From contig MEKT01000218.1 in assembly GCA_001767435.1 (NCBI GenBank), forward strand, positions 1-33,355: a DNA stretch of 33,355 bases, read 5' to 3'. The translations under genes were made by a program, and so were the position numbers. The DNA is from Acidobacteria bacterium RIFCSPLOWO2_02_FULL_65_29 (lineage in GTDB: Bacteria > Acidobacteriota > Vicinamibacteria > Vicinamibacterales > CAVVIG01). This document shows, in pieces, positions 10,360 to 33,132 of the stretch. How positions within the stretch are numbered: position 1 is the stretch's first letter; each line of letters starts with the position of its first letter. The notes under the pieces are model-generated. The model was not told where the DNA came from, did not search any database, and worked only from the letters and a program-made list of their open reading frames with translations.

Positions 10360-11133
10360 TCAGCGGGTGAGCGCCGCTTCGGCGGGCTTCTCCGCGGGCT
10401 CGAGGAACGCCGCCACCTGGCGCCGCAGCTCGTCCTGAATGTGATCGACCGGCCGCCGGGCGTCAAGCACCCGGAAGTGGAATTCATCCGCCATCGACGT
10501 GTACTCGCGGAGTAGCTTGCTCTGGTAGGCCCGGAAGCTGTCGTAGATTTCGTCGCTCTGCTTGAGGTCCATCCCGGATTCCCAGAAATCCATGCCGCGC
10601 GCGGCAAGGACGCGGCGGATGAGCGTCGAGACGTCCACCTTGAGATAGAAGACCATGTGCGGGGCGATGGCAAAACCGTAGAGCGTGCGGAGCCACTGGC
10701 GATCCACGCCCCTCACGCCCGCGCGGGCAAGGGCCGTGAAGATATACCGATCCGACAGCACGACGAAGCCGGCCTTGAGCGCCGGGATGACCTCTTTTTC
10801 CAGCCGATCGGCGAAGTCGGTGGCGTAGAGGAGCACAAACGTGAGCTTGTTGAGCGTGTTGCTCGACTTGGCGAGCTCGATCGTCGGCTGCATGAGCTCG
10901 GACCGCGTCCATCCGGTCTCGACAACCCCGTAGCCCTTGACCTCGAGCCATTCGCGCAGCAGCTGAATCTGCGTGCTGCGGCCCACACCGTCGGTGCCCT
11001 CGATGGCGATCAACTTCCCGGGATAGTTGCCGATCGGCAGATACGGAATACCGCGGCCGTAGTACCTGCCGGGCTGCATGCCGCCGTTCGCGCCCTCGGC
11101 GTTCTCCACAGGGTCTTCAGACGGGCTGCTCAT
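10360..11133 (-). CDS. Thymidylate-kinase-like P-loop protein with altered Walker A lysine
   Basis: 257 residues. The P-loop reads IEGTDGVGRST (residues 44-54): the Walker A lysine that contacts ATP phosphates is arginine (Arg52). The rest fits the TMK superfamily: ATDFADRL, VVLSDRYIFTALAR (Asp128, Arg129) and GVDRQWLRTLYGFA, then a C-terminal helical part. Classical TMK phosphorylates dTMP to dTDP; the usual SSLAYQ substrate motif after DRY is not present here. The start at 11133 has GGAGA about 8 bases upstream and overlaps the end of the neighbouring paralogue by 17 bases. It is the third gene of a unit with Ppx/GppA and that paralogue. It may be a non-catalytic partner or bind a different nucleotide. 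Confidence 0.82.
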   Translation of the reverse strand: MSSPSEDPVENAEGANGGMQPGRYYGRGIPYLPIGNYPGKLIAIEGTDGVGRSTQIQLLREWLEVKGYGVVETGWTRSELMQPTIELAKSSNTLNKLTFVLLYATDFADRLEKEVIPALKAGFVVLSDRYIFTALARAGVRGVDRQWLRTLYGFAIAPHMVFYLKVDVSTLIRRVLAARGMDFWESGMDLKQSDEIYDSFRAYQSKLLREYTSMADEFHFRVLDARRPVDHIQDELRRQVAAFLEPAEKPAEAALTR

Positions 11134-11818
11134 CGGTCGTCTCCAATTGCTCGCCGAGCTCGAGGTGGGGCGCGATCAGGTGCCGCACGAATCGCTGCTG
11201 CTCCATGATGCTGCCCCGGGCGTCGATGACCTCGAGCCCGAATTCCTCGACCAGCCGATCATACTCGTCGAGCACTTTACCTTGGAAGAGCCGGAAGCTG
11301 TCGGCCGGATTGCTGCTCCAACCCAGATCCATGCCGGCTTCGTAGAACTTCAGCTTGACGCGCCTGGCCATGAGCCGGTCGAGCGAGACGTCGATCGGCA
11401 CGCGGAAGTACAACGCCATGTCGGGTCTGACCCCGAAGCTGTACAGCTCGCGGACCCACTGGCGATCGACGCCGCGCGTGGCGTCCCGCGCAAAGGCGGT
11501 GTACGCGTAGCGGTCGGCCAGCACGATCATGCCGGCCTTGAGCGGCGGGATGATCTTGTAGAGGAGCCGATCAGCGAAGTCGGTGGCGTGCAGCAGGCTG
11601 AAGGTCATCGGCGTCAGGGCGTTCTTCTTCTTGCCCGTCTTGGTCGCCGCCTTGACCAGCGCTGACGAGTTCCATTCGGTGACGAACACGCGGTGGCCTT
11701 CCGCGATCAGCCATTTCGCCAGCAGGCCGAGCTGTGTCGTCTTCCCCGAGCCGTCGATGCCCTCGACCACGAACAGTTTGCCCGGATACTCGTGCGGTTT
11801 CGTGAGGTTGTTCAACAT
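11117..11818 (-). CDS. Thymidylate-kinase-like protein (canonical P-loop)
   Basis: 233 residues. The Walker A motif is intact, VEGIDGSGKTT (residues 18-28, Lys26), with ATDFADRL, VLADRYAYTAFARD (Asp102, Arg103) and GVDRQWVRELYSFG following in the same order as in the downstream paralogue. The middle and C-terminal parts (FYEAGMDLGWS, then SFRLFQGKVLDEY) differ from textbook Tmk and lack its SSLAYQ motif, so dTMP as substrate is not assured. Its ATG lies inside the 3' end of the ppx reading frame. The tandem kinases next to a Ppx/GppA phosphatase, a CHAD protein and SixA suggest a link to polyphosphate or nucleotide-phosphate balance; that link is inference. Confidence 0.88.
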   Translation of the reverse strand: MLNNLTKPHEYPGKLFVVEGIDGSGKTTQLGLLAKWLIAEGHRVFVTEWNSSALVKAATKTGKKKNALTPMTFSLLHATDFADRLLYKIIPPLKAGMIVLADRYAYTAFARDATRGVDRQWVRELYSFGVRPDMALYFRVPIDVSLDRLMARRVKLKFYEAGMDLGWSSNPADSFRLFQGKVLDEYDRLVEEFGLEVIDARGSIMEQQRFVRHLIAPHLELGEQLETTDEQPV

Positions 11819-13358
11819 GGGTCTGTCTGCTGACTTCGATGCGCAGCCGCTTGCCGAGCACTCGCTCGAACGGCATCACGTGCCGGTTGGCGGCCCAGAG
11901 CTCGAGCTCGGCGTCCCCCGACGTGCGGAGTTGCAGGAGCGTGTCGTCGCCGCGGTCGTGCAGCTCGATGCCCGCGACGGGCTGCGAGTGGCTGCGATCG
12001 AGGTTCTCGGCCAGGCGCAACATGGCGGCGAGCGTGCGGACGATCTTCCTGCGCTTGCGCTTGAGATCGCCGAAGCCCTCGTGCTGCCGGCTTGGGGGCG
12101 CACGGCGATGATAGCGCGCGATGAGCGCGATGGTCTCGATTTCGTCGGGCTCGAATCCGCGCAGGTCGCCGTTGCGGATCAGGTAATAGGAATGCTTGTG
12201 GTGCCGCTCGTAGCTGATGTGCACGCCGACGTCGTGCAGCATGGCCGCGTACTGCAGCCACTCGCGCTCGTGATCGGTCAGCCCGTGCGTGCCGCGCGTG
12301 TGGTCGAAGAGCGCCGTCGCGAGGCGCGCAACCTGCAGCGCGTGCTCCGGCCAGTAGTTGCACCGCTCGCCCAGCTCGACCACGCTTCGGTGCCGGATGT
12401 CGGGATATCGGTCGGCCTGGGCGATTTCCTTGCGGTGCCGGGCGATGTAGTCGAGGACGAGCCCCTCGCGCAGCGACAGGTCGCACAGCGAGATCTCCGA
12501 GGCGCCGAGCCGGCGCATGATCGTGTCGAGCAGAATGGCGCCGGCCACCGCGAGATCGCCGCGGCGGGGATCGAGGCCGGGCACCTTCAACCGCTTTTCG
12601 AGGGTGAGCCGCGTGAGCGTCTTGCGGAGGCGGTGGAGCTGCTTCGCCGAAACGCGCCAGTTCCGGAGCGCGGCAGCGCCTCGCCCCGATTCGGCGGCGG
12701 CGATCGCGCCGAGGCTGAGGATCGTGCCCGACGTGCCAATCACGCGGTCGAAGCCGGCGCGCGCCAGCTCGTCGAGATACTCGCCGATCTCCGACTCGAC
12801 GTGCCGCGCCAGCTTGCGCTCGTCGCGCGCGGAAATCGGATCGCTCTTGACGAACCGCTCGGTGAGCCGGATGACGCCCAGCTTGAAACTGCGCCCGAGG
12901 TCGACGTTCGAGCCGAGACCTCGCGTCACCTCGACGCTGCCGCCGCCGATGTCGACGGCGACCGCGATCTCGCCGGGCGCGCCGGTGCCGTAATTGGCCG
13001 CGAGATGAATCAGCCGTGCTTCCTCCGTGCCGGAAATCACCCGTGCGCGGATGCCGGTCTGCTGCATGATGGCCTGCAGGAATTCGCCGCCGTTCTCCGC
13101 TTCGCGCACCGCGCTCGTGGCGACCGCGACGGTGTGGTCCACGCTGTGCGATTCGGCCAGGCGGCGGAACTTCGACAGCACCTGCAGGGCGGCGTGCGTG
13201 GCCTCGGTCGTCAGCTTCCGGCCGTCGAGGCCGCCGGCGCCCAGCCGCACCATTTCCTTCTCGCGGTCGATCACCTCGAAGGACAGATCGGTCCTGACCT
13301 GCACGACGATCATGTGCACGGAATTGGTGCCGATGTCGATGGCGGCCAGGCGAATCAT
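11571..13358 (-). CDS. ppx: Ppx/GppA-family exopolyphosphatase with C-terminal HD domain
   Basis: 595 residues as read. The N-terminal two thirds are an ASKHA fold: DIGTNSVHMIVVQ (from Asp8), VATSAVREA, SGTEEARL with the likely catalytic glutamates 112/113, VDIGGGSVEV (from 135) and GTSGTILSLGA. An HD-type domain follows, with His339 and the LHDVGVH motif (His375, Asp376). Such enzymes hydrolyse polyphosphate or convert pppGpp to ppGpp. A normal protein of this type would end near residue 514; here the frame has no stop there and runs 248 bases into the kinase gene in another frame, so the last 80 or so residues are probably not native. A TGA in the third frame overlaps the kinase ATG, so one indel upstream would restore an ordinary end. 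It is divergent from the CHAD gene. Confidence 0.9.
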   Translation of the reverse strand: MIRLAAIDIGTNSVHMIVVQVRTDLSFEVIDREKEMVRLGAGGLDGRKLTTEATHAALQVLSKFRRLAESHSVDHTVAVATSAVREAENGGEFLQAIMQQTGIRARVISGTEEARLIHLAANYGTGAPGEIAVAVDIGGGSVEVTRGLGSNVDLGRSFKLGVIRLTERFVKSDPISARDERKLARHVESEIGEYLDELARAGFDRVIGTSGTILSLGAIAAAESGRGAAALRNWRVSAKQLHRLRKTLTRLTLEKRLKVPGLDPRRGDLAVAGAILLDTIMRRLGASEISLCDLSLREGLVLDYIARHRKEIAQADRYPDIRHRSVVELGERCNYWPEHALQVARLATALFDHTRGTHGLTDHEREWLQYAAMLHDVGVHISYERHHKHSYYLIRNGDLRGFEPDEIETIALIARYHRRAPPSRQHEGFGDLKRKRRKIVRTLAAMLRLAENLDRSHSQPVAGIELHDRGDDTLLQLRTSGDAELELWAANRHVMPFERVLGKRLRIEVSRQTHVEQPHETARVSGQTVRGRGHRRLGEDDTARPAGEMADRGRPPRVRHRMELVSAGQGGDQDGQEEERPDADDLQPAARHRLR

Positions 13359-15530: not shown

Positions 15531-15746
15531 ATGTTCGATCGAAGACTGTGCCACCGAGACCACGTTCGTCAGTATTCCATTTGTTCAACCGGGGTGGAAG
15601 GGTGGGAAGTCCGCCTCGAGGAGGACCGGACGCTCAGGCGTCTCGACCACTACCGCGACTGGCACCGCGTCGAGCGCGCGCTGGCGGCATTCGAGCGGGA
15701 AGTCGAGGAATTGACCGCACGGGGATGGCAGGTCACGAATCGATGA
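15531..15746 (+). CDS. Small hypothetical protein
   Basis: 71 residues. The N-terminal third is basic and unremarkable. The rest (WEVRLEEDRTLRRLDHY, then HRVERALAAFEREVEELTARGWQV) looks like a short beta strand followed by a long amphipathic helix, as in small conserved proteins of unknown role. AGGGG precedes the ATG by 4 bases. It is convergent with the response regulator gene and overlaps its last 14 bases. I do not recognise a named family. The charged, helix-forming composition favours a real gene over chance. Confidence 0.5.
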   Translation: MFDRRLCHRDHVRQYSICSTGVEGWEVRLEEDRTLRRLDHYRDWHRVERALAAFEREVEELTARGWQVTNR

Positions 15747-16425
15747 ACCGATAGCCGAGTCCGACGACGGTCTCGATTTGACGGCCAGCCCCTCCGAGCT
15801 TGCCCCGCAGCCGCCCCACGTGCACGTCCACGGACCGCGTCTCGACCAGCCGGTCGTAGCCCCACACGCGTTCGAGCAGCCGGTCGCGCGACACCACGCG
15901 GTTCTTGTTCTGCACGAGATAACGGAGCAGCTCGAATTCCCGGCGTGTGAGCCGCACCGATTCGCCGTCGACCGCGACGGCGACAGCGTCGAAGTCGGCC
16001 GAGAGGTGCGTCCCTTGGTAAGCGGCGGCGGGACGCTCCTCAGTCTTCGCGCTGCGCCGCAGCACAGCCCGGACGCGGGCCGTCAGCTCGCGCAGGCTGA
16101 ACGGCTTGGTCACATAATCGTCGGCGCCGAGATCCAGACCCGTGACCCGATCCTGTTCGGTGGTCCGCGCCGTGAGCATGATGATCGGCACGTGGCGGGC
16201 GTCGGCCCTGGACCGCAGAATCCGACACACTTCGACGCCGCTCAGCATCGGCAGATTGAGGTCGAGGATGATCAAATCGGGCGGCCCAGCCGCCACGGCC
16301 TTGAGCGCCGCGTCGCCGCTCCCGACGACCTCCGCATCCGCGTCCCCGCTTCGCTCGAGGGTGTGCTTGATCAGACGGGCGATGTCCTGCTCGTCTTCGA
16401 CGATGAGTACTTTGTGTTTGGGCAT
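15733..16425 (-). CDS. phoB: PhoB-like response regulator (OmpR/PhoB family)
   Basis: 230 residues from the ATG at 16425. The receiver domain (1-120) has the acidic pair Glu10/Asp11, the phospho-acceptor Asp55 in LIILDLNLPM, the switch threonine in IIMLTARTTEQD and the lysine in DDYVTKPF. The C-terminal winged helix (about 135-228) has RLTRREFELLRYLV, the recognition region ETRSVDVHVGRLRGKL, and VVGLGYRF. Its own promoter region has four 11-base-spaced Pho-box repeats on the coding strand, and it sits among pst genes, so PhoB is the best call. No histidine kinase gene follows in the window; a PhoR partner must lie elsewhere. A related OmpR-family regulator remains possible. Confidence 0.85.
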   Translation of the reverse strand: MPKHKVLIVEDEQDIARLIKHTLERSGDADAEVVGSGDAALKAVAAGPPDLIILDLNLPMLSGVEVCRILRSRADARHVPIIMLTARTTEQDRVTGLDLGADDYVTKPFSLRELTARVRAVLRRSAKTEERPAAAYQGTHLSADFDAVAVAVDGESVRLTRREFELLRYLVQNKNRVVSRDRLLERVWGYDRLVETRSVDVHVGRLRGKLGGAGRQIETVVGLGYRFIDS

Positions 16426-16490
16426 CGAATGCGCCGGGGGCGCGACCGCATGCGCCCGCGGGCCTCTCGCCGCTGGGCCGCCGTGCAAGT

Positions 16491-16544
16491 ACGTTACTGA
16501 TGCGACGTTTCGACGTCGTATCGAGGCTGTTAAATGTGGGTTAC
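16491..16544 (-). promoter_or_regulatory. Pho box and -10 upstream of the phoB-like gene
   Basis: On the minus strand four hexamers are spaced exactly 11 bases apart: GTAACC (16544), TTAACA (16533), GATACG (16522), GAAACG (16511). Nine bases after the last is a -10-like TAACGT (16496-16491). The same layout occurs before the porin, pstS1 and TonB receptor genes. It predicts that the response regulator controls its own gene. Confidence 0.7.
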
Positions 16545-16595
16545 TTCGCCGCGGATTTGATGTTATCCTGCCGTTGAGGTCCCGAAAGGAGCCCC

Positions 16596-17057
16596 GTGCG
16601 TCTGTTGTTTGCCCGCGCGTCCTGGCTCGTGAGCGGAACATTCGCGGTGGCCGTGCTGCTGGCGGCGCGCCCGGCTGCCCCGCAGTTCGTGTCGCTCTCC
16701 GGCAACCCGCACAACATCCTCGAGGGCAACTGGCAGTCGTGCCAGGAGAAGAACGGACGCTACGCCGAGCGCGTCTACGACCACCTCGTCAACGGCGTCG
16801 GGCAGTTCGAGGTGCACCTGGGGCCGCGACGCGAGTTCGCGATCTTCAAGGGGGTCCAGGACGAGCACCGCGACCACGAGTCCTCCGATAACCTGCTGCA
16901 ACCGTTTCGTGTCGCGATGGAAGGCACCCGGGCGAAACAGCGCTGGGAGATCAAGGCGCTCAACCTGGCGTTCAGGGTGACGCTCGGTGGCGGGTCCCGC
17001 ACCGATTGCGAGAGCTGGTTCATCGTCCTCGAGCCGCTCGAGAAGACGTCGCATTAG
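16596..17057 (+). CDS. Secreted hypothetical protein
   Basis: 153 residues from a GTG at 16596 with AAAGGAG 4 bases upstream. The N-terminal signal peptide (basic MRLLFARASW, then a hydrophobic core ending at about residue 29, AAPQ) directs export. The mature part of about 120 residues contains NWQSCQEKNGRYAERVYDH and two cysteines, and is polar with no membrane helix. I do not recognise a family or catalytic motif. It is divergent from the phoB-like gene; the shared 170-base region holds that gene's Pho box, so co-regulation by phosphate is possible but not shown. It is followed by an intergenic repeat region. Confidence 0.75.
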   Translation: MRLLFARASWLVSGTFAVAVLLAARPAAPQFVSLSGNPHNILEGNWQSCQEKNGRYAERVYDHLVNGVGQFEVHLGPRREFAIFKGVQDEHRDHESSDNLLQPFRVAMEGTRAKQRWEIKALNLAFRVTLGGGSRTDCESWFIVLEPLEKTSH

Positions 17058-17267: not shown

Positions 17268-17309
17268 GATAGCTGAAAGCTGATAGCTGAGAGCTGATAG
17301 CTGAATGAA
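17268..17309. repeat. Period-7 tandem repeat, unit GATAGCT
   Basis: Heptamers gatagct, gaaagct, gatagct, gagagct, gatagct and gaatgaa run up to and through the ATG of the RMD1 gene at 17305. The array therefore occupies the ribosome-binding region of that gene. A short related run (cagctct, cagctat) is at 17060-17073. Confidence 0.9.
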
Positions 17310-18399
17310 CGAGATTCGCGCCGCCCAGATCTCGGCGTTCTATCTGTTCGACGTTGCCGAGACCGTCGATCTCGCGGCCATCCCCGCGCTCATCGGCGGG
17401 CCGACGGTGGCGGCCCGCCTTGCTCCCAAGCCCGCGACGCCCGCCTACGTGCAGTACGACAAGCCGCCCGTGTCATTTGACGGCGAGGCCGTGGGCATCG
17501 GCGAGATCGACGGCTTTCGAGCACGCTTCCGCCTGTACGACTACGGCGTGATCTCGATCGCGCTCACGCGGCCGTTCAGCGGCGACTGGCCGGAGCTGGT
17601 CACGCTCGGCCAATCCCTCATCGAAAACGACGAGCTCGAGGCGCGCGCCGCCGGATTGTGCCGCTCGACGGCCGATCGCCTGCGGCCGGCGCTCAAGGGG
17701 TTTCGGACCACCGACCTCAGCGAGGATTATCTCGTGTATGCGATCACGGAGCTCGATCGGCCGCAGACGGCCGACGAGCTGCTGGCCGCGCGAGGCGGCG
17801 ACATCGCCGCGATGCTGCGCGGGGAACGCCAGCGGCTGAGCGACCAGGAAAGAGAAACGATTCTCGGGCGTCGGATTTCATATCTTGCCGACGACCTGGT
17901 CGTTCCCACCTGGAACGCGGCCTTCGTGTACGACACGCCGGCCGGCGCGCAGGCCGCCCTCGAAATCCTGGAGTTCGCCAACTCTCAGCTGCTCGAGTTT
18001 CGCTATTATGACGAGCGTCTCGACAACGAGCTGGCCGCGATCTACGCGGGGCTGCAGCGGCCGGGCTGGTACGATCAGTGGGTGGGCTCGCGCTATGCCA
18101 GGGCCGCGCGGGGCGTGCACGCGCTCATCATCGAGGTCCAGGAGCTTACCGATCGTACGGAAAACGCCCTCAAATTCACGGGCGACATCTACGCCGCGCG
18201 GCTGTTCCGGTTGGTCGGCGAGCGGCTGGGATTGAGCAGCTGGAAGGCCGACGTCGAGGCGAAGCTCAAGACGCTTGGCGACATCTACCACTTCACCGTC
18301 GAGCAGTCGTCAATGGCGCGCGGCCAGTTTCTCGAGCTCACCATCGTACTGATTCTCGTGCTCGAGCTCGTGCTGATCTTTCTCGGCGTCATGCAGTGA
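17305..18399 (+). CDS. RMD1/YagE (DUF155) family protein with C-terminal membrane anchor
   Basis: 364 residues. The C-terminal half shows the RMD1/DUF155 pattern: ALEILEFANSQLLEFRYYD, then a long helical stretch (LIIEVQELTDRTENALKF and LGDIYHFTVEQSSMARG) and a single hydrophobic helix at the extreme C-terminus (about residues 343-362). The N-terminal half is a soluble mixed alpha/beta region. Yeast Rmd1 relatives are organelle-membrane proteins of poorly known function; the bacterial ones have none assigned. The chosen ATG lies within a heptamer repeat and has no clear ribosome-binding site; no better start is visible. It stands alone upstream of the porin gene. Confidence 0.8.
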   Translation: MNEIRAAQISAFYLFDVAETVDLAAIPALIGGPTVAARLAPKPATPAYVQYDKPPVSFDGEAVGIGEIDGFRARFRLYDYGVISIALTRPFSGDWPELVTLGQSLIENDELEARAAGLCRSTADRLRPALKGFRTTDLSEDYLVYAITELDRPQTADELLAARGGDIAAMLRGERQRLSDQERETILGRRISYLADDLVVPTWNAAFVYDTPAGAQAALEILEFANSQLLEFRYYDERLDNELAAIYAGLQRPGWYDQWVGSRYARAARGVHALIIEVQELTDRTENALKFTGDIYAARLFRLVGERLGLSSWKADVEAKLKTLGDIYHFTVEQSSMARGQFLELTIVLILVLELVLIFLGVMQ

Positions 18400-18521: not shown

Positions 18522-19787
18522 ATGAGTTCTTTGCGACCGGAACAAGGGCGCAACACACCACCCTTCTTGGTGCGTGGTTGCACGCTTGGGCTTCTCGTTT
18601 GGTGCGCTCCCTTCGCCTATGCTCAAGGCCGCCAGACGGCGGTGGCCACCGCCGCGAACGTGGCAGCCCCCCGGGGATCTCCGGACGGCAGCACGACGCC
18701 TGCCGCTGCGCAAACCGCGCAAGTGTCGAGCGACGATGAGAAGAGGGAATCGACGTACGACAAGATATGGAAGTTCGCCAAGTGGTACGAGAACGATTCG
18801 AATCCGGTGGTCCAGAGAGTGCTGTTCAGCGGACGATACCAGCACGAGTTCGCAGCGATCGACGCGGACGAAGGCGATCTCGACGACTGGAATGTCCGGC
18901 GTATGCGGCTGGGCCCGAGAGTGACGCTTTTCCACACGTTCACCCTTCACGGCGAGATTGAACTCAACCCGCAGGAACGCGACCCACTATACGTGCGGTT
19001 GACGGACCTGTACTTGCAGTGGAGCAGAAGCGGCCGGCTCGCGCTGACGTTCGGCAAACACGGCGTGCCCTTCACGATGGACGGGGCAACATCGTCCAAG
19101 GAACTCCTCGCGATCGATCGAAGCAACTTGAGCAACAACATGTGGTTTCCGCAGGAATACATTCCTGGCGTAAGCGTGTCGGGCAGGGTCGCCCCCTGGG
19201 TCTATCGTGCTGGCGTGTACTCGGCGGGCGAAGCGAACCGCGAATTCGGCGAGTTCAACGGAAGCGTCTTTGTTCTTGCCGTCCTTGGCTACGACTTTGC
19301 GAAGCCGCTCGGAGTGAAGGAGGCGCTGCTGGCCGGCAACTACGTGCATCAGGATCCGGATTCGGCTAACTCCTTTACTCGACAGCTCGAGCGCATTGTG
19401 TCTGTCAACTTCAAGTTGGATGCGGGCACGTGGGGCGCGCGCGCAGATGTGTCGGCCGCGTCCGGGTACCTGGGCCAGAGCAATCTGTGGGGCGTGATGG
19501 CCATGCCGCACGTCAACCTCACCCGCAAGCTCCAGCTCGTCGGTCGCTACACGCGCCTCGAGAGCGATGACCCCAACGGAGTCCGGTTCGGGACGTATGA
19601 AAACCGCGTAGTCCCAGGCCGGGGTGACCGGTACGACGAGCTGTATCTGGGCGCCAACTACTTCTTCTACGATCACAAGCTCAAGCTGCAGAGCGGCATT
19701 CAATTTGCGGACATGAACGATCGCGCCAACGACGGCGGGGAGTATTCGGGTGTGTCGTGGACAACGGGCATTCGCGTTGGTTGGTGA
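18522..19787 (+). CDS. Phosphate-selective porin, OprO/OprP family
   Basis: 421 residues with a signal peptide (cleavage near AYAQG, about residue 35). The mature protein has the alternating aromatic/polar strands of an outer-membrane barrel and ends in an aromatic residue (RVGW). RMRLGPRVTLFHTFTLHGEIEL, TDLYLQWSRSGRLALTFGKH and the SSKELLAIDRS loop region match the Porin_O_P family of anion- and phosphate-selective porins. It would admit phosphate across the outer membrane. It stands directly upstream of pstSCA and has its own Pho-type promoter whose -10 lies only 6 bases from the ATG, which suggests a leaderless transcript. Substrate selectivity for phosphate or pyrophosphate is inferred from family and context. 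Confidence 0.87.
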   Translation: MSSLRPEQGRNTPPFLVRGCTLGLLVWCAPFAYAQGRQTAVATAANVAAPRGSPDGSTTPAAAQTAQVSSDDEKRESTYDKIWKFAKWYENDSNPVVQRVLFSGRYQHEFAAIDADEGDLDDWNVRRMRLGPRVTLFHTFTLHGEIELNPQERDPLYVRLTDLYLQWSRSGRLALTFGKHGVPFTMDGATSSKELLAIDRSNLSNNMWFPQEYIPGVSVSGRVAPWVYRAGVYSAGEANREFGEFNGSVFVLAVLGYDFAKPLGVKEALLAGNYVHQDPDSANSFTRQLERIVSVNFKLDAGTWGARADVSAASGYLGQSNLWGVMAMPHVNLTRKLQLVGRYTRLESDDPNGVRFGTYENRVVPGRGDRYDELYLGANYFFYDHKLKLQSGIQFADMNDRANDGGEYSGVSWTTGIRVGW

Positions 19788-23024: not shown

Positions 23025-23993
23025 CTATGGCTGTTGCCGACGCGGGAACAGGTCCGGATTGTTCGTGAACAGCGCGTCGATGCCGAGGTCGTTCAGGAAG
23101 TGCGCCATCTCGGCTCGTGCGGCGGCCTGATTGGTCTTCTCGTCGGTCGTGAACGTCCACGAGGTCACGGTGAGCTTCAGCGCGTGCGCGCGCGCGACCA
23201 TCTCTGGTTGCGAAGTGATCACGCGCTTCTCGGGCGCGACGCCCGTCGCAAACGTCGCAACCTCCTTCAAGCGCGCCTCGGTGACATCGGCCGCCTCCGA
23301 CGTGAGGAACACGCGTGGAACCGTCGGCAGCTCGGTGGCCATGCGCCGGATCGTGGCTTCATCGAACGACTGGATGATGAGGGGCGTGGTCTTCAGCGAC
23401 TCGGGCCGCTCCAACCCGTGCTTCTTCACCGAGTCGACGAAGATCTTCGCCATGTCGACGCCGCGCGCAGCGTAGAACGGGGGAGATTTCAGCTCGGGAT
23501 ACATCCCTGTCCCGGGGCGGCCTCGAACCAGCGCAATCGCTTCGTCCCATGTGACGATGCGCTCGCCCATGAACTTGCCGCTGAACCAGCGGCCCATATC
23601 GAGCTTGCGAATCTCGTCCAGCGTGAAGTCGTTTGCGACGTAGCGCCTGGCGGGGCCCCTGCCGGCGCCCGTTCCGGCCAGCTGCTTCGAAAACCGATCG
23701 GGGAAAACCGTCGCGACGTCACTCGTGCGCTCGAGCGTGTCGTCGTGCAGGCAGATGAGCACGCCGTCCTTGGTCACGGCCAGATCCTGCTCGACGTAAT
23801 CCGCGCCCTGCACCATCGCCAGCCGGTACGCCGTCAGCGTGTGCTCGGGCGCGTACGCCGACGCGCCGCGATGCGCGATGTTCTCTTTCGCGCCTGCGCC
23901 TCGCCCCTGGGCCACGGCCATCATTTGAGCGCCAGCCAGAATTGAGCAGGCGATGACGGTTCGCAGCACAGCATGGGCATGCATGGGCGTCAT
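23025..23993 (-). CDS. Glycerophosphodiester phosphodiesterase, secreted
   Basis: 322 residues from the ATG at 23993, with a signal peptide ending near MMAVAQG. The GDPD catalytic site is clear: IAHRGASAYAPEHT (His and Arg of the HRG motif, metal Glu in PEHT), VEQDLAVTKDG with the second metal Glu/Asp pair, and LHDDTLERTS with the second catalytic histidine. It hydrolyses glycerophosphodiesters from lipid turnover to glycerol-3-phosphate and an alcohol, a phosphate-scavenging step found in Pho regulons. A perfect -10, TATAAT, is at 23997-23992. It overlaps this ATG, but lies 7 bases before a second in-frame ATG at 23984, which may be the real, leaderless start. Only one Pho-like half-site (TGTAAA, 24041-24036) is nearby. 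Confidence 0.93.
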   Translation of the reverse strand: MTPMHAHAVLRTVIACSILAGAQMMAVAQGRGAGAKENIAHRGASAYAPEHTLTAYRLAMVQGADYVEQDLAVTKDGVLICLHDDTLERTSDVATVFPDRFSKQLAGTGAGRGPARRYVANDFTLDEIRKLDMGRWFSGKFMGERIVTWDEAIALVRGRPGTGMYPELKSPPFYAARGVDMAKIFVDSVKKHGLERPESLKTTPLIIQSFDEATIRRMATELPTVPRVFLTSEAADVTEARLKEVATFATGVAPEKRVITSQPEMVARAHALKLTVTSWTFTTDEKTNQAAARAEMAHFLNDLGIDALFTNNPDLFPRRQQP

Positions 23994-23997
23994 TATA
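23992..23997 (-). promoter_or_regulatory. Consensus -10 box before the phosphodiesterase gene
   Basis: TATAAT on the minus strand, 7 bases before the in-frame ATG at 23984. A transcript starting at the usual distance would begin at or next to that ATG. No -35 hexamer of quality is seen. The rest of the divergent 24000-24268 space holds the TonB receptor promoter and nothing else I can support. Confidence 0.55.
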
Positions 23998-24170
23998 CGA
24001 GGCCGCCTCGGCGCCGGCGGCCGCTTCGAAGAGAGTTTACACCTGTGCCGCTCGTCCGACATGCCACGGTGACGCGCCGCTGGCACCATGGACGCATCGC
24101 GGTATCGCGACTGAGGGCGCCCATGAATCTCCAGCAGGTCGAACAATTGATCGCGCTCATCCGGATGGAG

Positions 24171-24224
24171 TTAACACACCTTTAACACATCCGTCACGGT
24201 CGGTTGACCCCATGCCCATACAGT
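24171..24224 (+). promoter_or_regulatory. Pho box and -10 upstream of the TonB receptor gene
   Basis: Four hexamers at exact 11-base spacing: TTAACA (24171), TTAACA (24182), GTCACG (24193), TTGACC (24204). A -10-like TACAGT (24219-24224) follows after 9 bases. This is the cleanest site of the set and places the receptor and its partner in the predicted Pho regulon. Confidence 0.75.
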
Positions 24225-24268
24225 CGATGGAGCTTTGACCGCCAGAACGCTCGACTTCCGAGGACTCT

Positions 24269-27043
24269 ATGAAACTGCGCAACGTCGCCCAAATCCTGCT
24301 TCTTGGCACGGCCATGCTCGCGGTGCTCGCGACACTGGACGCCTCCGCCCAGGTCCGGAGCACCAACATCGTCGGGGTGGTCCGCGACGAAATCAACCAG
24401 ATCCCGCTGCCAGGCGTCCCCGTGGAGGTGACCGGGACCAGCCAGGTCGTCTACACCGATGTCGACGGCCGCTATGTTCTCAGCCTTCCGACGGGTTCTT
24501 ACGAAGTCAAGTTCTCCATGGAGGGCTATCAGGCGAGAACCCTCAAAGTCGATGTCGCCGGCGAGCGCACCGTGACGGCCGACGTCGGTCTGACGATGGC
24601 CCGGTTTGCCGAGACCGTCAACGTGACCGCCAGCTTGCTGACGGTCGAGACCTCGTCCGCGGAAGCCCAGCTCACGGAGCGCAAGAACGCCCAGGTGATC
24701 ACCGACAACATCGGATCCCAGGAAATGAAGGCGAACGGCGATTCAGACGCCGCGTCGGCGATGTCGCGAGTGACCGGCCTCTCGATTGTGGACAGCCAGT
24801 ACGTATTCGTTCGGGGGCTGGGCGAGCGGTACAGCAACACGACGCTCGCTGGGTCGGTGCTGCCGACGACCGAGCCCGACAAGAAAGTCGTGCCGCTGGA
24901 TCTGTTCCCGGCGGGCCTTATCGACAGCGTCCAGGTCGCCAAGTCGTACACGCCGGAGAAGTCGGCCGAGTTCGCGGGCGGCCTCGTGCAGATCGTTCCC
25001 CTCAAGCTGCCGACGCGGCCGATGGTCGATCTCTCATACGGTCTGAACTTCTACTCGACGGCGACCGGCAAGAACATTCTGTTGAGTCCGTCAGGTGCGC
25101 GCGACTGGATGGGGTACGACGATGGCGCGCGGGCGCTACCCGGCGGCATTCCGGACGGCAAGATCGTCCGGCAAGGGATCTACACGCCGAGCGTGGGCTA
25201 TACGGCCGACCAGGTCGCGCAGTTCGGCAAGCTGTTCGAGAACGTGTGGCAGCCGCGGGCGGCCGAAGGCGCGCCGGGCCAGAACTGGGGCATCGCGCTC
25301 GGCAATCGGTTCGACAAGCTGGGCGTCGTCGCGAGCGTCTCGCAGTCGTACAAGGAACAGTACACCGAGGAGGAGCGGCGGTTCTTCCGCGTGGGGTCCG
25401 GGGCCGCGCTCGACACGGTGAGCGACTACACGATGCAGTACGGAACCGAGAAGGCGCAGCTCGGCATCGTCGGGAATGTCGCGTATCAATTCACCTCGAA
25501 CCACCGCCTGTCACTGGAGAACTTCTATTCCCACAGCGGGCGCGACGAGGGGAGGTTCTTTCAGGGCAACAACTTCGAGAACGCGCGCGTCTGGCGGAAT
25601 TACCGCCTCCAGTTCATCGAGGAAGGGCTCCTCTCCAACGCGGTGACCGGCGAGCACTTCTTTCAGAGCCTCTCCCATAGCCGGGTCGACTGGCGCGTGA
25701 ACGTCGCGCGCGCGAAGCGCGACGAACCGGACCTTCGCGAAGTGCTGTACGAGTCGCCGCTCCCGCCCGCGACGCAAGCCTTCACGCTGGCCGACGAGTC
25801 GCAGAGCGGCTTCCGCATGTTCAACGAGCTCGACGACGAGACGCTCGACGTGGCGGCCAACTGGAGCCTGTTCCGCGCGGCCGCCGGCCGTGCCACGCAA
25901 GTCAAGTTCGGCGCCAGCTTCGTGGATCGGACGCGCGACTTCCGGTCGAGGCGGTTCCACTACATCCCGATCACCGCGACCAAGGACGGCGCCGTCGCGA
26001 CCGATCTGAGGCTCGAGCCGGAGCTGCAGTTCACGCAGGAGAAGATCGGCGTGGCGTTCCGCCTGAACGAGGAGACGCGCCCCGTGGACGCCTACGACGG
26101 CGAATACACGACGGCGGCGGGATACGGCATGGTGGACGTGGCGTTCAGCGCGCGGTCGCGGCTCGTCGCAGGGGGACGGCTCGAGCGCTTCGATCAGCAG
26201 GTCAACACGTTCGACCCGTTCGGGTTGTTCGTGCGGACCGTCACGGCGTCCAACAAGAACACCGATTTTTTCCCAGGCGTCAACTTCGTGCAGTCGCTCA
26301 CCCAGACGTCGAACCTGCGCGTGAGCTACAGCACGACCGTGAACCGGCCTGAGTTCCGCGAGCTGGCCGAGTTCGAGTTCACCGACGTCGTGGGCAATCG
26401 CGCCGTGAGGGGCAACCCGGATCTCAAGCGCGCGCTGATTCAGAACGTGGACGGCCGGTTCGAGTCGTTCCTGGGCGCCCGCGGGATCGTCGCCGCCAGC
26501 GTGTTCTACAAGTACTTCGACCAGCCGATCGAGCGCATCGTCATCGGCGGCGCCCAGCCGCTGGTCACATTCCAGAACTCCGAGCACGCGCGTAATTTCG
26601 GCATCGAGCTCGAAACGGGCCATCCGGTCGGCGAGCATTTGTTCTTCAACGCCAACTACACGTACGTCGCCTCGCAGATTTCCCTCCTTCCCGAACAGCA
26701 GACGGTTCAGACGTCGCTCGAGCGCCCGCTGGCGGGCCAGTCGAAGAACCTGCTGAACTTGATGGGAGAATTCGTGATGCGCGGGTTCTCGACGCGTCTC
26801 CTGTTCAACTACTTCGACGACCGCATCTCGGACGTCGGCTCGAACGAAGCGCCCGACATCGTCGAGCAGGGCCGCGGCGCTCTCGACCTGGTGATCTCTC
26901 AGCGGATGGGCCGCTTCGGCGTGAAGCTGAACCTCGAGAACCTCACCGATTCGGAATACCTGTTTACGCAGGGCGACGACGAGCAGCGCGTCTTCAAGCT
27001 GGGCCGGACGATCGGTCTCTCCGTCAGCCTCAACGTGTTCTGA
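24269..27043 (+). CDS. TonB-dependent outer-membrane receptor with carboxypeptidase-regulatory-like N-terminal domain
   Basis: 924 residues with GAGGA 4 bases before the ATG. The order is: signal peptide (to about residue 27, DASAQ), a CarboxypepD_reg-like beta sandwich (about 30-115: IVGVVRDEINQIPLPGVPVEV, then YTDVDGRYVLSLPTGSY), a plug domain with VFVRGLGERYSNTTLAGS and FPAGLIDSVQVAKSYTPEKSAEFAGG, and a 22-strand-type barrel ending in an aromatic residue (SLNVF). It would import a bound substrate using TonB energy. The Pho-type promoter suggests a phosphorus-containing substrate or a protein-bound phosphate source. The beta-helix gene begins 37 bases downstream and is probably co-transcribed. 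The substrate is not evident from sequence. Confidence 0.92.
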   Translation: MKLRNVAQILLLGTAMLAVLATLDASAQVRSTNIVGVVRDEINQIPLPGVPVEVTGTSQVVYTDVDGRYVLSLPTGSYEVKFSMEGYQARTLKVDVAGERTVTADVGLTMARFAETVNVTASLLTVETSSAEAQLTERKNAQVITDNIGSQEMKANGDSDAASAMSRVTGLSIVDSQYVFVRGLGERYSNTTLAGSVLPTTEPDKKVVPLDLFPAGLIDSVQVAKSYTPEKSAEFAGGLVQIVPLKLPTRPMVDLSYGLNFYSTATGKNILLSPSGARDWMGYDDGARALPGGIPDGKIVRQGIYTPSVGYTADQVAQFGKLFENVWQPRAAEGAPGQNWGIALGNRFDKLGVVASVSQSYKEQYTEEERRFFRVGSGAALDTVSDYTMQYGTEKAQLGIVGNVAYQFTSNHRLSLENFYSHSGRDEGRFFQGNNFENARVWRNYRLQFIEEGLLSNAVTGEHFFQSLSHSRVDWRVNVARAKRDEPDLREVLYESPLPPATQAFTLADESQSGFRMFNELDDETLDVAANWSLFRAAAGRATQVKFGASFVDRTRDFRSRRFHYIPITATKDGAVATDLRLEPELQFTQEKIGVAFRLNEETRPVDAYDGEYTTAAGYGMVDVAFSARSRLVAGGRLERFDQQVNTFDPFGLFVRTVTASNKNTDFFPGVNFVQSLTQTSNLRVSYSTTVNRPEFRELAEFEFTDVVGNRAVRGNPDLKRALIQNVDGRFESFLGARGIVAASVFYKYFDQPIERIVIGGAQPLVTFQNSEHARNFGIELETGHPVGEHLFFNANYTYVASQISLLPEQQTVQTSLERPLAGQSKNLLNLMGEFVMRGFSTRLLFNYFDDRISDVGSNEAPDIVEQGRGALDLVISQRMGRFGVKLNLENLTDSEYLFTQGDDEQRVFKLGRTIGLSVSLNVF

Positions 27044-27080
27044 CACGACACGGCACAAGGACCAGAGGACAAAACGCACC

Positions 27081-28406
27081 ATGACCCCACTGACACGCAT
27101 TGGCTGCGGGCTCGCCATCGGCGCGGGCCTGCTTGTTGCGCAGGTCGCCACGGTATGGACCGACCAGGCGCCCCCCGTCAACGTGCCCGGCATCGACAAG
27201 CCCGTCATCGTCGTGACGAATGAGATTACGGGAACCGAAAACTGGACCAGCAGCAACTACTACGTGCTCCGCGGCGCGGTGTTCGTCCGTGACGGGGCGA
27301 CCCTCAACATCCAGGCGGGCACGCGGATTATCGGCGAGGCGGGCAGCGTCGGCACACTGATCGTCCTGCGCGGCGGCCGTCTGAACGCCATCGGCACCCG
27401 GACGCAGCCGATCGTCTTCACGAGCGATCAGCCCATCGGCTCCCGCTCGCGAGGCGACTGGGGCGGGCTCATCATCAACGGCCGCGCGCCGATCAACGTG
27501 CCGGGCGGCGAGGCCGCAGGCGAAGGCGACACCGGCACCTATGGGGGCAACCAGCCCGACGACAACAGCGGCTCGCTGGTCTACGTACGCGTCGAGTTTT
27601 CGGGCGTCGAGTTCAGCCCCGACAACGAGCTGAACGGTATCGCTTTTCAGGCGGTCGGCCGGGGTGGCAGGTACGACTACCTTCAGGCCCACGGGAGCCG
27701 GGATGACGCCATCGAATTCTTCGGCGGTACGGTCGACGCCAGGCACCTGGTCATGAGCAACGCCGCCGACGACAGCCTCGACTGGACGTTCGGCTGGACC
27801 GGCCGAGTGCAGTTTGCCGCCGTCACCCAGCGCGGCGACGATGCCGACAACGGGATCGAGGCCGACAACAACGAGTTCGGCAACAACCTGCTGCCCCGGT
27901 CCAATCCTCAGATCTACAACCTGACGATGTGCGGCGATTCCGATAGAAACGAAGGCGGCGAGAGCGTGCGGGCCGCGAATCTTCGCCGCGGAACGGCGCT
28001 CACCCTGCGAAACTTCCTGATCACCGGCTTCAAGACGACCGGCCTCCAGATGGAGACCACCAACACGGACACGACCGGTCAGGTCGCCAACGGCACGACG
28101 CAGATCGGCGCCGGCGTCATTTGGGGCATTCCGACGCCCGCCCACTCGAGCGTGACGCCCTATATCACCAGCGCGCGCTTCCCCGACGTGCGGCTGAACG
28201 TGGACGGCGGGTTGTCGCCCGATTGCTTCCGCCACGAGAGCCCGAACTTCCAGCCGACGTCGATTGCGACGCTGGCCGGTGGGCAGCTGGCGCCGATCGT
28301 GCCACCCAACGACGGGTTCTTCGAGGTCACCACGTACATCGGCGCCGTCCCGCCGGCGCCGGCCGACGACTGGACGACCGGCTGGACGTCGTACCCGCAG
28401 CGGTAA
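27081..28406 (+). CDS. Secreted parallel beta-helix protein, partner of the TonB receptor
   Basis: 441 residues with a signal peptide (residues 1-29). The mature part has regular short strands and turns typical of a right-handed parallel beta helix: YYVLRGAVFVRDGATLNIQAG, GTLIVLRGGRLNAIGT, RGDWGGLIINGRAPIN, and later DDAIEFFGGTVDARHLVMSN. Acidic, asparagine-rich turns (DADNGIEADNNEFGNN) could bind calcium. Similar proteins are encoded beside TonB receptors in several phyla without a proven role; a surface-exposed substrate-binding or processing partner is likely. A GAGGAC precedes the ATG. It ends the unit controlled by the Pho box at 24171 and is followed by an intrinsic terminator. No catalytic residues can be named. 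Confidence 0.82.
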   Translation: MTPLTRIGCGLAIGAGLLVAQVATVWTDQAPPVNVPGIDKPVIVVTNEITGTENWTSSNYYVLRGAVFVRDGATLNIQAGTRIIGEAGSVGTLIVLRGGRLNAIGTRTQPIVFTSDQPIGSRSRGDWGGLIINGRAPINVPGGEAAGEGDTGTYGGNQPDDNSGSLVYVRVEFSGVEFSPDNELNGIAFQAVGRGGRYDYLQAHGSRDDAIEFFGGTVDARHLVMSNAADDSLDWTFGWTGRVQFAAVTQRGDDADNGIEADNNEFGNNLLPRSNPQIYNLTMCGDSDRNEGGESVRAANLRRGTALTLRNFLITGFKTTGLQMETTNTDTTGQVANGTTQIGAGVIWGIPTPAHSSVTPYITSARFPDVRLNVDGGLSPDCFRHESPNFQPTSIATLAGGQLAPIVPPNDGFFEVTTYIGAVPPAPADDWTTGWTSYPQR

Positions 28407-28410
28407 AGGC

Positions 28411-28460
28411 CGTTCGGCGTTCTGCGTTCTCACGTTCGAGGTTCAAGCATTCGACGTTCG
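28411..28460. repeat. Period-7 repeat, unit CGTTCNN
   Basis: Units cgttcgg, cgttctg, cgttctc, acgttcg, aggttca, agcattcg and acgttcg, degenerate and with one 8-base unit. It begins 4 bases after the beta-helix gene stop and ends just before the terminator hairpin. Confidence 0.7.
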
Positions 28461-28472
28461 ACTACCTTCGTG

Positions 28473-28516
28473 GAGCCGGGCCGGATCGAGGGGATCCGCG
28501 CCCGGCTCGTGTTTTT
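28473..28516 (+). terminator. Intrinsic terminator after the TonB receptor / beta-helix operon
   Basis: The stem GAGCCGGGC (28473-28481) pairs with GCCCGGCTC (28500-28508), extended inside by CGGATC (28482-28487) and GATCCG (28493-28498) around a 5-base loop. GTGTTTTT follows directly. This is the clearest rho-independent terminator in the window. It ends 16 bases before the next ATG. Confidence 0.88.
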
Positions 28517-28531
28517 CTACGATGGCCTGAC

Positions 28532-29026
28532 ATGTTCCAGTGGTGGCAAGGAGTGCTCGTCGCGTGCGTCCTCGGTTTGGCCGGGTGCTCCGGAGCGCCT
28601 TTGAAGAACGGGCGCGAGTCGCCGGACGCGCTGGCGCGCGCCGTGCTCGATGCCGTCGCCAGGCGGGACGGTGATGCGCTCCGCGCGCTGACCTTCGATG
28701 AGGAGGAGTTCCGTGAGCTGGTGTGGCCCGACCTGCCGGCCAGCCGCCCCGAGCGCAATCTTCCGTTCGGGTACGTGTGGACCGACCTGCGCCGGAAAAG
28801 CGATGCCGGCCTCGCGAGTGTCCTCGAGGCTCACGGCGGGCGTGTTCTCGATCTCGTCGGCGTATCGTTCCGAGCGGAAACGACGCAGTACCGGACGTTC
28901 CTCGTCCATCGGGACAGCCAGGTCACGGTCCGTGACGCCACCCGCCGCCAGCAGGTCGTTCAGCTCTTCGGATCGGTGATCGAGAAAGACGGCCGTTTCA
29001 AGGTGTTCAGTTACGTGGTCGACTGA
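28532..29026 (+). CDS. Putative lipoprotein of unknown function
   Basis: 164 residues from the ATG at 28532. The N-terminus is a lipoprotein signal: a hydrophobic core (WWQGVLVACVLG) then the lipobox LAGC with Cys19. The mature part is about 145 residues: a helical start (ALARAVLDAVARRDGDALRAL, resembling the small domain of NTF2-like or DUF4878-type lipoproteins), then a region with PFGYVWTDLRRKSDAGL, and strands near the C-terminus (FGSVIEKDGRFKVFSYVV). I cannot assign a named family with confidence. It lies 16 bases after a terminator and before the second pst operon, so it needs its own promoter or read-through. Confidence 0.75.
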   Translation: MFQWWQGVLVACVLGLAGCSGAPLKNGRESPDALARAVLDAVARRDGDALRALTFDEEEFRELVWPDLPASRPERNLPFGYVWTDLRRKSDAGLASVLEAHGGRVLDLVGVSFRAETTQYRTFLVHRDSQVTVRDATRRQQVVQLFGSVIEKDGRFKVFSYVVD

Positions 29027-30165: not shown

Positions 30166-31074
30166 ATGCGCCACCCGATCACGCACCGGCTCGTGCAGCT
30201 CTCCGAACCGCTGGTGGAGTGGACGATCCGCCTCTGCGGATGGAGCGCCATCTTCTTCGTCTTTGCCATCTTCTTCTTTGTCTTTCGAGAAGGCGCGCCT
30301 ATCCTCTTTCGCGGTCTCGACCTGACAGAATTTTTTACTGGCGTCAACTGGCGTCCGGATTCGCGGATCCAGGCGCAGTACGGCATTCTCGCTCTGCTCG
30401 TGGGCACCGCCTCAGTGACCGCCCTTGCCATGGCTCTCTCGGTTCCCGCGGGACTGGGGGCGGCGATCTTCGTCTCGGAGTTCTGCGGCCAAAGGGCACG
30501 GGAAACGCTGAAGATCGTGATCGAGTTGCTGGCGGCCATCCCGTCCGTGGTGTGGGGCTTCGTGGGCTACATGGTCTTGAACCCCGTCCTCATCTGGGCC
30601 ACCGGGGCTCCCATCGGCATCAACATCCTCAATGGGGGGATTATCCTCGCCTTGATGAGCGTGCCGATCATCATGTCGGTCGGCGAGGACGCCCTCAAGG
30701 CCGTGCCAGACACCTATCGGGAAGCCGCGGTCGCGCTGGGCGCCAACCGCTGGCAGGTGGTCTATAAGGTGCTCTTGCCGGCGGCGAAAAACGGGCTGCT
30801 GGCGGCGGTGTTGCTCGGCATCGGCCGCGCGGTCGGCGAGACGATGGCGGTGCTGATGGCCACCGGGCACTCGGTACGGATTCCTCATAGTCTGTTCGAT
30901 CCGGTGCGCACGCTCACGGCCACGATCGCCGCAGAACTGGGCGAATCCGTCGAAGGGGGCGACCACTACCGGGTGCTGTTCGTCATCGGCAGCCTGCTCA
31001 TGCTGATTGCGTTTGCCGTCAATCTGACAGCGGATTTGATTGTGAAGGGCATTCGGGGGAAGCAGGATGCCTGA
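30166..31074 (+). CDS. pstC: Phosphate ABC transporter permease PstC (copy 2)
   Basis: 302 residues from the ATG at 30166, which gives a normal short N-terminus before the first helix; an in-frame ATG at 30115 would overlap pstS2. Six membrane helices, the coupling loop YREAAVALGANRWQVVYKV and GRAVGETMAVLMATGHSVRIP mark it as PstC. It pairs with the unusual PstA2, whose gene it overlaps by 8 bases. It is clearly different in sequence from PstC1, so the two operons are not a recent duplication. Confidence 0.93.
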   Translation: MRHPITHRLVQLSEPLVEWTIRLCGWSAIFFVFAIFFFVFREGAPILFRGLDLTEFFTGVNWRPDSRIQAQYGILALLVGTASVTALAMALSVPAGLGAAIFVSEFCGQRARETLKIVIELLAAIPSVVWGFVGYMVLNPVLIWATGAPIGINILNGGIILALMSVPIIMSVGEDALKAVPDTYREAAVALGANRWQVVYKVLLPAAKNGLLAAVLLGIGRAVGETMAVLMATGHSVRIPHSLFDPVRTLTATIAAELGESVEGGDHYRVLFVIGSLLMLIAFAVNLTADLIVKGIRGKQDA

Positions 31075-32368
31075 AGAATCCGGGCGCACGCTCCGCTACG
31101 TCGCCTCGGCGACCGGCAGCGACGAACGAGGGGATGGTACCGCGGAGCGTCCGTTCCGAAGCCTCGAGAGGGCCACCTCCGCCGTCCTCGCCTCCTATCG
31201 CGACGAGGAGACGGGCCGGCTCAGAACGCTCACGGGCACCCATGCGGTGGAGCTGGTGTGCGCCGCAGATCCGGCCGAGCGTCGCGGGATCTTCAAGAGA
31301 CGATGCGTCAACTATCACGTCGATCCCGAAGTGATCGGCGCCGATGGAAACGGGAGCGAGATGGCCCCGTGGTCGGATCTGGAGACGGCCCTGGCCGGGA
31401 TCGTCCGTGCGCACGGTGACCACGGATCGTCCAGGTTGACGCCAGGCACATCGATCCACCTCCGCGTGCACGGGCTCTTCGCGGCCGGCGCCATCGAGCG
31501 CCGGAAGCAACTGATCGAGCGGGTGGTCTTCGGAGTGTTGGCGCTGATCACGACCTTGCTCGTCCTGCCTCTGGCCGCCATTCTCGGCTACCTCCTGGTG
31601 AAGGCGTGGCCGGTCCTTTCCTCGGATTTCATCCTCCAGAACCCATCGGCCTACATGACGGCCGGCGGCATCTGGGCGCCGCTCGTCGGGACGTTCTACC
31701 TGGTGTTCATTTCGCTTGTCATCGCCGCTCCCATCGGCGTGCTGGCGGGCGTGTATCTCAACGAGTACGCGGGTGAGAACTGGCTGACGCGCATCGTCAA
31801 CCTGGCCGTCGTCAATCTGGCAGGTGTGCCCAGCATTGTCCACGCGCTGTTCGGCGTCGGCGCGTTCGTGCTGTTTGCCGGTCTCGGCCGATCGGTTCTC
31901 GCGGCGTCGTGCACGCTGGCGATCATGACGTTGCCTGTGATTGTCACGAGCACGAAAGAGGCGCTGGCTGCCGTGCCGTACTCGTTTCGCGAGGCGTGCT
32001 GGAACATGGGCGCCAGTCGCTGGCAAACGATTCGCACGATCGTGCTGCCGAACGCGATCAGCGGGATCCTGACCGGCGTGATCCTCCAGGTTTCGCGGGC
32101 GGCAGGCGAGACCGCCCCGATTCTCTTCACGGGGGCCGTCTTTTATGTGGCCGTTCCGGATGAGGGGTTGGCTGCCTTCTTTCCCTACGGGTTGCGCGAT
32201 TCCTTCATGGCGCTGTCCTACCACCTGTTCACGATTTCCACTCAGGTCACGGGAGTGTCCGAAGGCCTCCAATACGGCACGGCGGTGGTGCTCATCGGGC
32301 TGGTCATGACCGTGAACCTGATCTCGATTGCGTTCCGCGTGTACCTGCGTTCGCACAAGAAGTGGTAG
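31067..32368 (+). CDS. pstA: Phosphate ABC transporter permease PstA (copy 2) with extra N-terminal domain
   Basis: 433 residues, against about 300 for PstA1. Residues 1-145 form a soluble domain absent from ordinary PstA. It begins TLRYVASATGSDERGDGT, then ERPFRSLERA, a pattern like the opening of parallel beta-helix (DUF1565-type) proteins, and contains Cys65 and Cys80. With a cytoplasmic N-terminus, as usual for this permease fold, it would lie near the ATPases. From about residue 152 the protein is a standard six-helix Pst[19 protein letters not shown], the coupling loop FREACWNMGASRWQTIRTI and SRAAGETAPILFTGAVF. The ATG overlaps pstC2 by 8 bases. The role of the extra domain is unknown. 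Confidence 0.9.
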   Translation: MPEESGRTLRYVASATGSDERGDGTAERPFRSLERATSAVLASYRDEETGRLRTLTGTHAVELVCAADPAERRGIFKRRCVNYHVDPEVIGADGNGSEMAPWSDLETALAGIVRAHGDHGSSRLTPGTSIHLRVHGLFAAGAIERRKQLIERVVFGVLALITTLLVLPLAAILGYLLVKAWPVLSSDFILQNPSAYMTAGGIWAPLVGTFYLVFISLVIAAPIGVLAGVYLNEYAGENWLTRIVNLAVVNLAGVPSIVHALFGVGAFVLFAGLGRSVLAASCTLAIMTLPVIVTSTKEALAAVPYSFREACWNMGASRWQTIRTIVLPNAISGILTGVILQVSRAAGETAPILFTGAVFYVAVPDEGLAAFFPYGLRDSFMALSYHLFTISTQVTGVSEGLQYGTAVVLIGLVMTVNLISIAFRVYLRSHKKW

Positions 32369-32376
32369 TCCCAACG

Positions 32377-33132
32377 ATGGAACCGCACATCGTGTTCCGG
32401 GACGTGACGGTGACGTATGGAACGAAGATGGCGCTCCAGAACGTCACGCTGGAGATTCCGCGCAATCGAATCTTCGGGATCATCGGTCCCTCGAACTCTG
32501 GGAAGACCACCCTTCTCAAGTGCATCAACCGCATGATCGACTTCGTGCCCGGGGTCAGGGTTCAGGGCCAGGTGCGCATCGAGAACGAGGATGTCTTTCG
32601 CACGAGGAATGTCTTCGCGCTGCGACGCCGGATCGGCATGGTGTTCCCCCTGCCGGTCGGTCTGCCGCTGTCGGTCTACGACAATGTCGCCTATGCGCCC
32701 CGGATGGCCGGCCTCACCGACCCTGGCGAACTGGACGGCCTGGTCGAAACGTGCCTTCGGCACGCCGCGCTCTGGGACGAGGTGAAAGATCGATTGCGCC
32801 AGTTGGGAACCAAGCTCTCCGGCGGCCAGCAGCAGCGTCTCACCATCGCTCGAGCGCTTTCTCACCGACCGGAGATCTTGTGCCTGGACGAGTTCTCCAT
32901 CGCCGTTGACCCGGTCACGACGATGAAGATCGAGGACGTGCTGCTCGATCTCAAGCAGAAGATGACCATCGTGGTGGTCACCAATCTGGTCCAGCAGGCG
33001 CGCAGACTGGCGGATCAGATTGCGTTTCTCAACAGCTCGCGGCTCGTCGAGGTCGGGCCGAGCGACGTCATCTTCTCCGAACATCCAGCCAGCCAGGTGA
33101 CGTTCGATTACGTGAGGGGACATTTCGGATGA
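32377..33132 (+). CDS. PstB-like ATPase with degenerate Q-loop and H-loop
   Basis: 251 residues from the ATG at 32377 (a GTG at 32362 overlapping the pstA2 stop is an alternative). Walker [10 protein letters not shown] (37-45), signature LSGGQQQR (147-154) and the Walker B Asp171-Glu172 are kept. The Q-loop glutamine is proline (GMVFP, Pro91) and the switch histidine is asparagine (VVVTN, Asn203). The D-loop reads IAVD in place of SALD and the helical-domain entry PLPVGLP replaces KxNPFP. ATP binding should persist, but hydrolysis at sites using its own Q- and H-loops should be impaired. A canonical pstB overlaps its stop (ATGA at 33129). I infer a heterodimeric ATPase with one weak site. Confidence 0.9.

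Follow-up and report, generated by a model that had tools for sequence, protein, structure and literature searches.

The window, that is, the whole 33,355-nucleotide stretch of DNA analysed here (GC 65 percent), comes from a soil bacterium of the Acidobacteriota with a 5.5-Mb genome, and its relatives carry the names Vicinamibacteria or Vicinamibacterales, Acidobacteriota. It holds many phosphate genes, among which sit a gene for a TonB-dependent receptor and one for a beta-helix protein. On the minus strand lie PhoU (7758-8444) and PstB of a first Pst set (pstB1, 8532-9392), both assigned by sequence and gene order, together with Ppx (11571-13358), an OmpR/PhoB-type regulator (15733-16641) and a secreted GDPD (23025-24146). 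A Porin_O_P gene (18522-19787) and PstS1 (from 19921) are also present, and a second PstS-C-A-B set ends at 33132, with the two Pst systems lying one on each side of the receptor cassette. Elsewhere in the window, PstA of the second set (31067-32368) has an N-terminal extension of ~150 residues ahead of the PstA domain, a 364-aa protein encoded directly ahead of the Porin_O_P gene (17305-18399) matched nothing in Pfam or NCBIfam, and two adjoining minus-strand genes that by eye resemble thymidylate kinases (10360-11818; P-loop GTDG/GIDGSGKTT) lie next to Ppx and a CHAD-domain gene.

The receptor gene (24269-27043, plus strand) is an ORF of 924 aa with an N-terminal carboxypeptidase-regulatory-like domain, a plug and a barrel (Pfam scores: CarboxypepD_reg 1.6e-14, Plug 2.5e-6, TonB beta-barrel 7.2e-23; families PF13620, PF07715, PF00593 and PF14905). 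It is followed by an ORF of 441 aa (27081-28406, plus strand), which we assign, by an AlphaFold model and a family alignment, to a secreted right-handed beta-helix protein, apparently ElpS/FII-like. This protein had no match in Pfam, NCBIfam or PDB sequences, and on its own Foldseek matched it to beta-helix proteins only weakly (E 0.008 or more). Its model is a right-handed beta-helix (mean pLDDT 74, loops poor), and the best PDB structural alignments were to beta-helix enzymes (Z about 22). No lipobox was seen on inspection, so that a surface location for the protein rests on its lipoprotein relatives.

Eight acids of the beta-helix protein, E183, D208, D209, E212, D230, D231, D234 and E260, were invariant where counted in 94 of 94 beta-helix domains from several phyla, and N185, N280 and N311 were likewise invariant. 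The 22-residue spacing of D208/D230 and of E212/D234/D256 suggests that these residues stack on successive turns of the predicted helix. Some relatives (L101 7447-11547, L102 8776-12846, L104 7276-10146) contain more than one such domain: three per protein, with a lipoprotein-like start, in Alteromonas and Pseudoalteromonas, and two in one protein in Indioceanicola.

Beyond the beta-helix gene, a hairpin with a U tract (28473-28514, plus strand), possibly a partial terminator, precedes a third gene. The segment 28468-28522 folds at -33.6 kcal/mol (z -4.1); a bulge breaks the stem of the hairpin, which a consensus terminator scan left out of its list. The third gene (28532-29026, plus strand) encodes a predicted lipoprotein of 164 aa with the lipobox LAGC, and a lipobox is also found in most of its relatives. 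No Pfam family matched this protein, and a plasmid search for its relatives gave none at E 0.1. Its model (pLDDT 94) aligned to cystatin-like/NTF2-like chains with Z up to 9.1, most others being about 5-6.6, which makes the predicted NTF2-like/cystatin-like fold probable, not certain. An earlier note on this DNA had described a TonB receptor with a peptidase-regulatory N-terminal domain, then a secreted beta-helix protein, then a terminator. The Pfam matches and the AlphaFold model agree with the first two. The hairpin and its U tract are real, but they lie inside a conserved unit, and the conserved gene that follows rules them out as its end; the limits 24171-28516 given for the unit were accordingly too short and missed the third gene.

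A tandem Pho-box promoter ahead of the receptor gene

Upstream of the receptor gene we found a Pho box of three 11-bp direct repeats (TTAACACACCT/TTAACACATCC/GTCACG; 24171..24198, plus strand), a fourth, weaker repeat (about 24204-24208, plus strand) and a -10-like element, TACAGT (24219..24224, plus strand), 20 bases past the 28-base array. The pattern TTWACA-N5-TTWACA is matched perfectly at 24171; with up to 3 mismatches allowed, the window contains 16 matches vs 4.3 expected, and none of 100 shuffles reached 16. A 28-base motif was learned by expectation maximisation from the sequences ahead of the receptor gene in 23 Vicinamibacteria loci, the window being excluded; these loci had been chosen for look-alike promoters in a first pass, a choice that favours the motif. 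The motif recovered, TTAACnCnGnnGTAACAnnCCCGTCAC, has three repeats spaced 11 bases and a log-likelihood of 312 vs 71-89 in five shuffled sets, although the exact gap is not calibrated because the shuffled sets were searched with fewer seeds. By this held-out matrix the receptor site scored 31.9 bits, the best in 33 kb, whereas 200 dinucleotide-shuffled versions of the window peaked at 18.9 bits. The next sites belong to the regulator (16517, minus strand), pstS1 (19859), the Porin_O_P gene (18462), a position near pstS2 (29143, opposite strand) and, with a lower score of 10.9 bits, pstB1 (9381, minus strand); four of these five next-ranked separate sites lie at phosphate-gene starts. For the genome-wide matches to the pattern outside the window (C2, C4, C25 and C72) no phosphate gene was identified, and the wider stretch around C25, the one such stretch viewed, showed no convincing gene.

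The layout recurs in relatives. Leave-one-out matrices ranked the receptor site first or second in 24/24 loci, and TAnnnT stands exactly 20 bases downstream of the array in 23/24 promoters (background 0.005 per position), with a fourth repeat, often TTCAC or ATCAC, between array and -10. A consensus sigma-70 scan found nothing. The tandem boxes are placed to replace a -35 element, and the array with its fixed -10 has the layout of PhoB-activated promoters. In related loci the motif is also found ahead of PhoB-like regulators, Porin_O_P genes and one PhoU-like gene. The best Pho box of the window thus does lie ahead of the receptor, as had been claimed, and its counterparts in relatives, together with Pst, PhoB and PhoX neighbours, point to the phosphate control that was proposed with it.

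Such control may not be universal for the cassette. Some relatives, e.g. L048-L051, have weak or no Pho-like sites, and most Poribacteria cassettes have an AT-rich upstream motif that lacks a clear 11-bp spacing and are thus possibly under another regulator. This motif (TTTTTAACAAAAAAATAACACATTTTTGTTGCA, then a TTATAAT-like element) was seen upstream of the receptor in L064, L067, L074, L076, L082, L092 and other Poribacteria loci. Separately, Pho-box matches near the cassette precede genes for small secreted-looking proteins of 211-230 aa with no Pfam match in four loci (L032 4240-4884; L034 266-901; L033 3641-4333, minus strand; L023 636-1289).

One candidate for import by the receptor is inorganic phosphate, which the beta-helix protein would bind and which would be taken in this way whenever porins let it diffuse too slowly. 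This would fit the two flanking Pst systems and the Porin_O_P-like genes that adjoin two related cassettes. However, the window's Porin_O_P gene is already under its own Pho box and the acidic invariant site does not favour direct capture of an anion, and we regard import of this kind as distinctly improbable.

Conservation of the three-gene unit and its relation to known systems

The order receptor, beta-helix gene, lipoprotein gene was kept in the first relatives wherever the contig was long enough. Repeatedly found in relatives, the receptor/beta-helix order is near-universal among 80 loci from named genomes in several phyla, and the conserved pairing foreseen for the two genes therefore holds. 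The lipoprotein gene comes next in almost every locus from Vicinamibacteria, Poribacteria and Latescibacterota, and also in a single locus from Thermodesulfobacteriota. Of 193 genomes of the class, 56 carry the beta-helix gene, 54 the lipoprotein gene and 53 both; 52 of these 53 pairs are adjacent on one strand with a gap of 62-266 bases, the sole exception being split between contigs. The Fisher P for this co-occurrence, 1e-42, overstates the evidence because related genomes are not independent, but the pattern is nonetheless clear. A TonB gene just downstream of the cassette in 25 loci, usual in Poribacteria, supports active transport.

Phosphate genes (pstS/pstC, phoU, phoX, ppk, ppx or GDPD) lie within 8 kb of the cassette in only 14 of the 54 loci that span at least 12 kb, a raw count at the cut-offs used, uncorrected for chance. 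A glycerophosphodiester substrate was considered in view of the neighbouring GDPD gene; against it, a GDPD gene is near only 1/80 loci at the cut-off used. Pfam confirmed PhoX near the cassette in three loci (L024, L061 and L087). PhoX is a Ca/Fe enzyme, and the receptor might accordingly import no phosphorus and instead a metal complex (Fe, Ca or lanthanide) for PhoX-type phosphatases, with the beta-helix protein as a metal-capturing partner. The invariant acids suit cations better than they suit direct phosphate binding. Even so, we judge this unlikely, as the phosphate genes near the cassette are more often Pst genes than phoX (3 loci) and a non-systematic look noted no metal-uptake genes beside the cassette.

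The earlier note suggested that the pair may be undescribed, which comparison with the literature did not support. In Caulobacter crescentus the lipoprotein ElpS (CC_0170), encoded beside the TonB-dependent receptor CC_0171, is made on phosphate starvation, is associated with extracellular phosphatase activity, and is released with the aid of the type II secretion system (PMC2996285). CC_0171 was reported there not to be phosphate-regulated (data not shown in PMC2996285). In Flavobacterium johnsoniae, Fjoh_0545 (TBDT) and Fjoh_0546 (FII) form PUSIV in the phoBR cluster, with log2 inductions of 8.0 and 9.9, respectively, under low phosphate; FI, FII and FIII are reported to be related to the Caulobacter lipoprotein, FI being the most abundant low-phosphate exoprotein of that species (PMC8115612). 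ElpS, a surface protein induced by phosphate starvation, is apparently of one family with the window beta-helix protein and likewise adjoins a receptor (PMC2996285). Fjoh_0545 resembles the window receptor in its Plug, CarbopepD_reg_2 and OMP_b-brl_3 domains, has a partner of pectin-lyase fold and is clustered with phoBR and OprP (PMC8115612).

There are also differences. ElpS and FII are lipoproteins, whereas the window beta-helix protein shows no lipobox on inspection; a TonB-dependent receptor gene adjoins its gene, as in ElpS/FII-type pairs. No adjoining NTF2-like lipoprotein is described for Caulobacter (PMC2996285); in Flavobacterium, the nearby lipoprotein Fjoh_0549 carries pf07705, unlike the window lipoprotein, and those bacteria are reported to lack a Pst transporter (PMC8115612). 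SusCD/PusCD systems likewise combine a TonB-dependent barrel with a partner encoded alongside; the partner in the window is instead a beta-helix protein, which gave no Pfam match to a SusD family at E 0.001.

Judging by plasmid relatives and gene order, the window protein may belong to the ElpS/FII family. Cultured Alteromonas, Pseudoalteromonas, Indioceanicola, Hymenobacter, Parabacteroides and Aureibacter carry the pair on plasmids, with identities to the window of 26-30 percent for receptors and 33-44 percent for beta-helix proteins. The Alteromonas pair adjoins phoB, phoR and a PstS-like gene and is followed by DUF3450/ExbB/ExbD/TonB genes, and the Indioceanicola order of beta-helix, receptor and gsp genes is that of Caulobacter.

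We found no assigned function for the ElpS/FII family in the literature searched. One possibility is an enzyme whose substrates are polysaccharides or cell-wall polymers that carry phosphate, with the receptor importing the released fragments as in a polysaccharide utilisation locus. The closest folds are indeed those of alginate epimerases/lyases, polygalacturonases and tailspikes, and models of the homologues from Flavobacterium looked polygalacturonase-like (PMC8115612). However, identity to those folds is about 10 percent, a common fold shows no function, and no carbohydrate-active or SusD-type neighbour was found among the genes examined by Pfam, which makes a glycan-processing role quite unlikely in our view.

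Proposed role in phosphorus acquisition

With moderate confidence, we favour a reading in which the receptor imports a ligand that carries phosphorus and that the beta-helix protein has first captured or processed. The three genes would constitute a PhoB-activated outer-membrane acquisition cassette. On phosphate starvation, PhoB-type activators would bind the tandem Pho-box array upstream of the -10 and turn the genes on. The beta-helix protein would be secreted and act at the cell surface, where its invariant acidic site, probably with metal ions such as Ca2+, may bind or process the ligand. The receptor, TonB-energised as expected from its family, would deliver to the periplasm either the ligand itself or what is made from it; judging by the neighbouring genes, periplasmic phosphatases and the flanking Pst transporters could then finish uptake. 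Judging by its strict co-occurrence, the NTF2-like lipoprotein would be an indispensable accessory, which may act as a chaperone or docking factor in the periplasm or at the outer membrane. The active outer-membrane import suggested in the earlier note is thus a likely role on sequence grounds, and none of the ligand candidates listed there is singled out. Against the phosphorus-ligand reading we count the CC_0171 report, the Poribacteria motif, the weak L048-L051 sites, the 14/54 loci and the missing lipobox.

A bolder proposal, which we offer tentatively and consider unlikely, is that the beta-helix protein represents a new metal-dependent class of proteins that either act on phosphorus compounds as enzymes or capture them, by means of the acids D208/D209, D230/D231, D234, E212 and E260 about one turn apart, and that with the receptor and the NTF2-like lipoprotein it makes up a phosphorus-uptake machine of several phyla. 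Four points are new here: the third gene, a promoter of fixed layout, the spread of the unit across phyla and the acids that are invariant in all 94 domains; the third gene appears undescribed, as no description of the NTF2-like lipoprotein was found in the literature searched.

Most of the phosphorus in soil is in organic or mineral-bound form and, to our knowledge, its acquisition across the outer membrane by Acidobacteriota is poorly known. Taken together, a phosphate-switched cassette of several phyla, whose promoter is precise and whose candidate active-site residues are invariant, offers a concrete target for finding the ligand of the ElpS/FII family.
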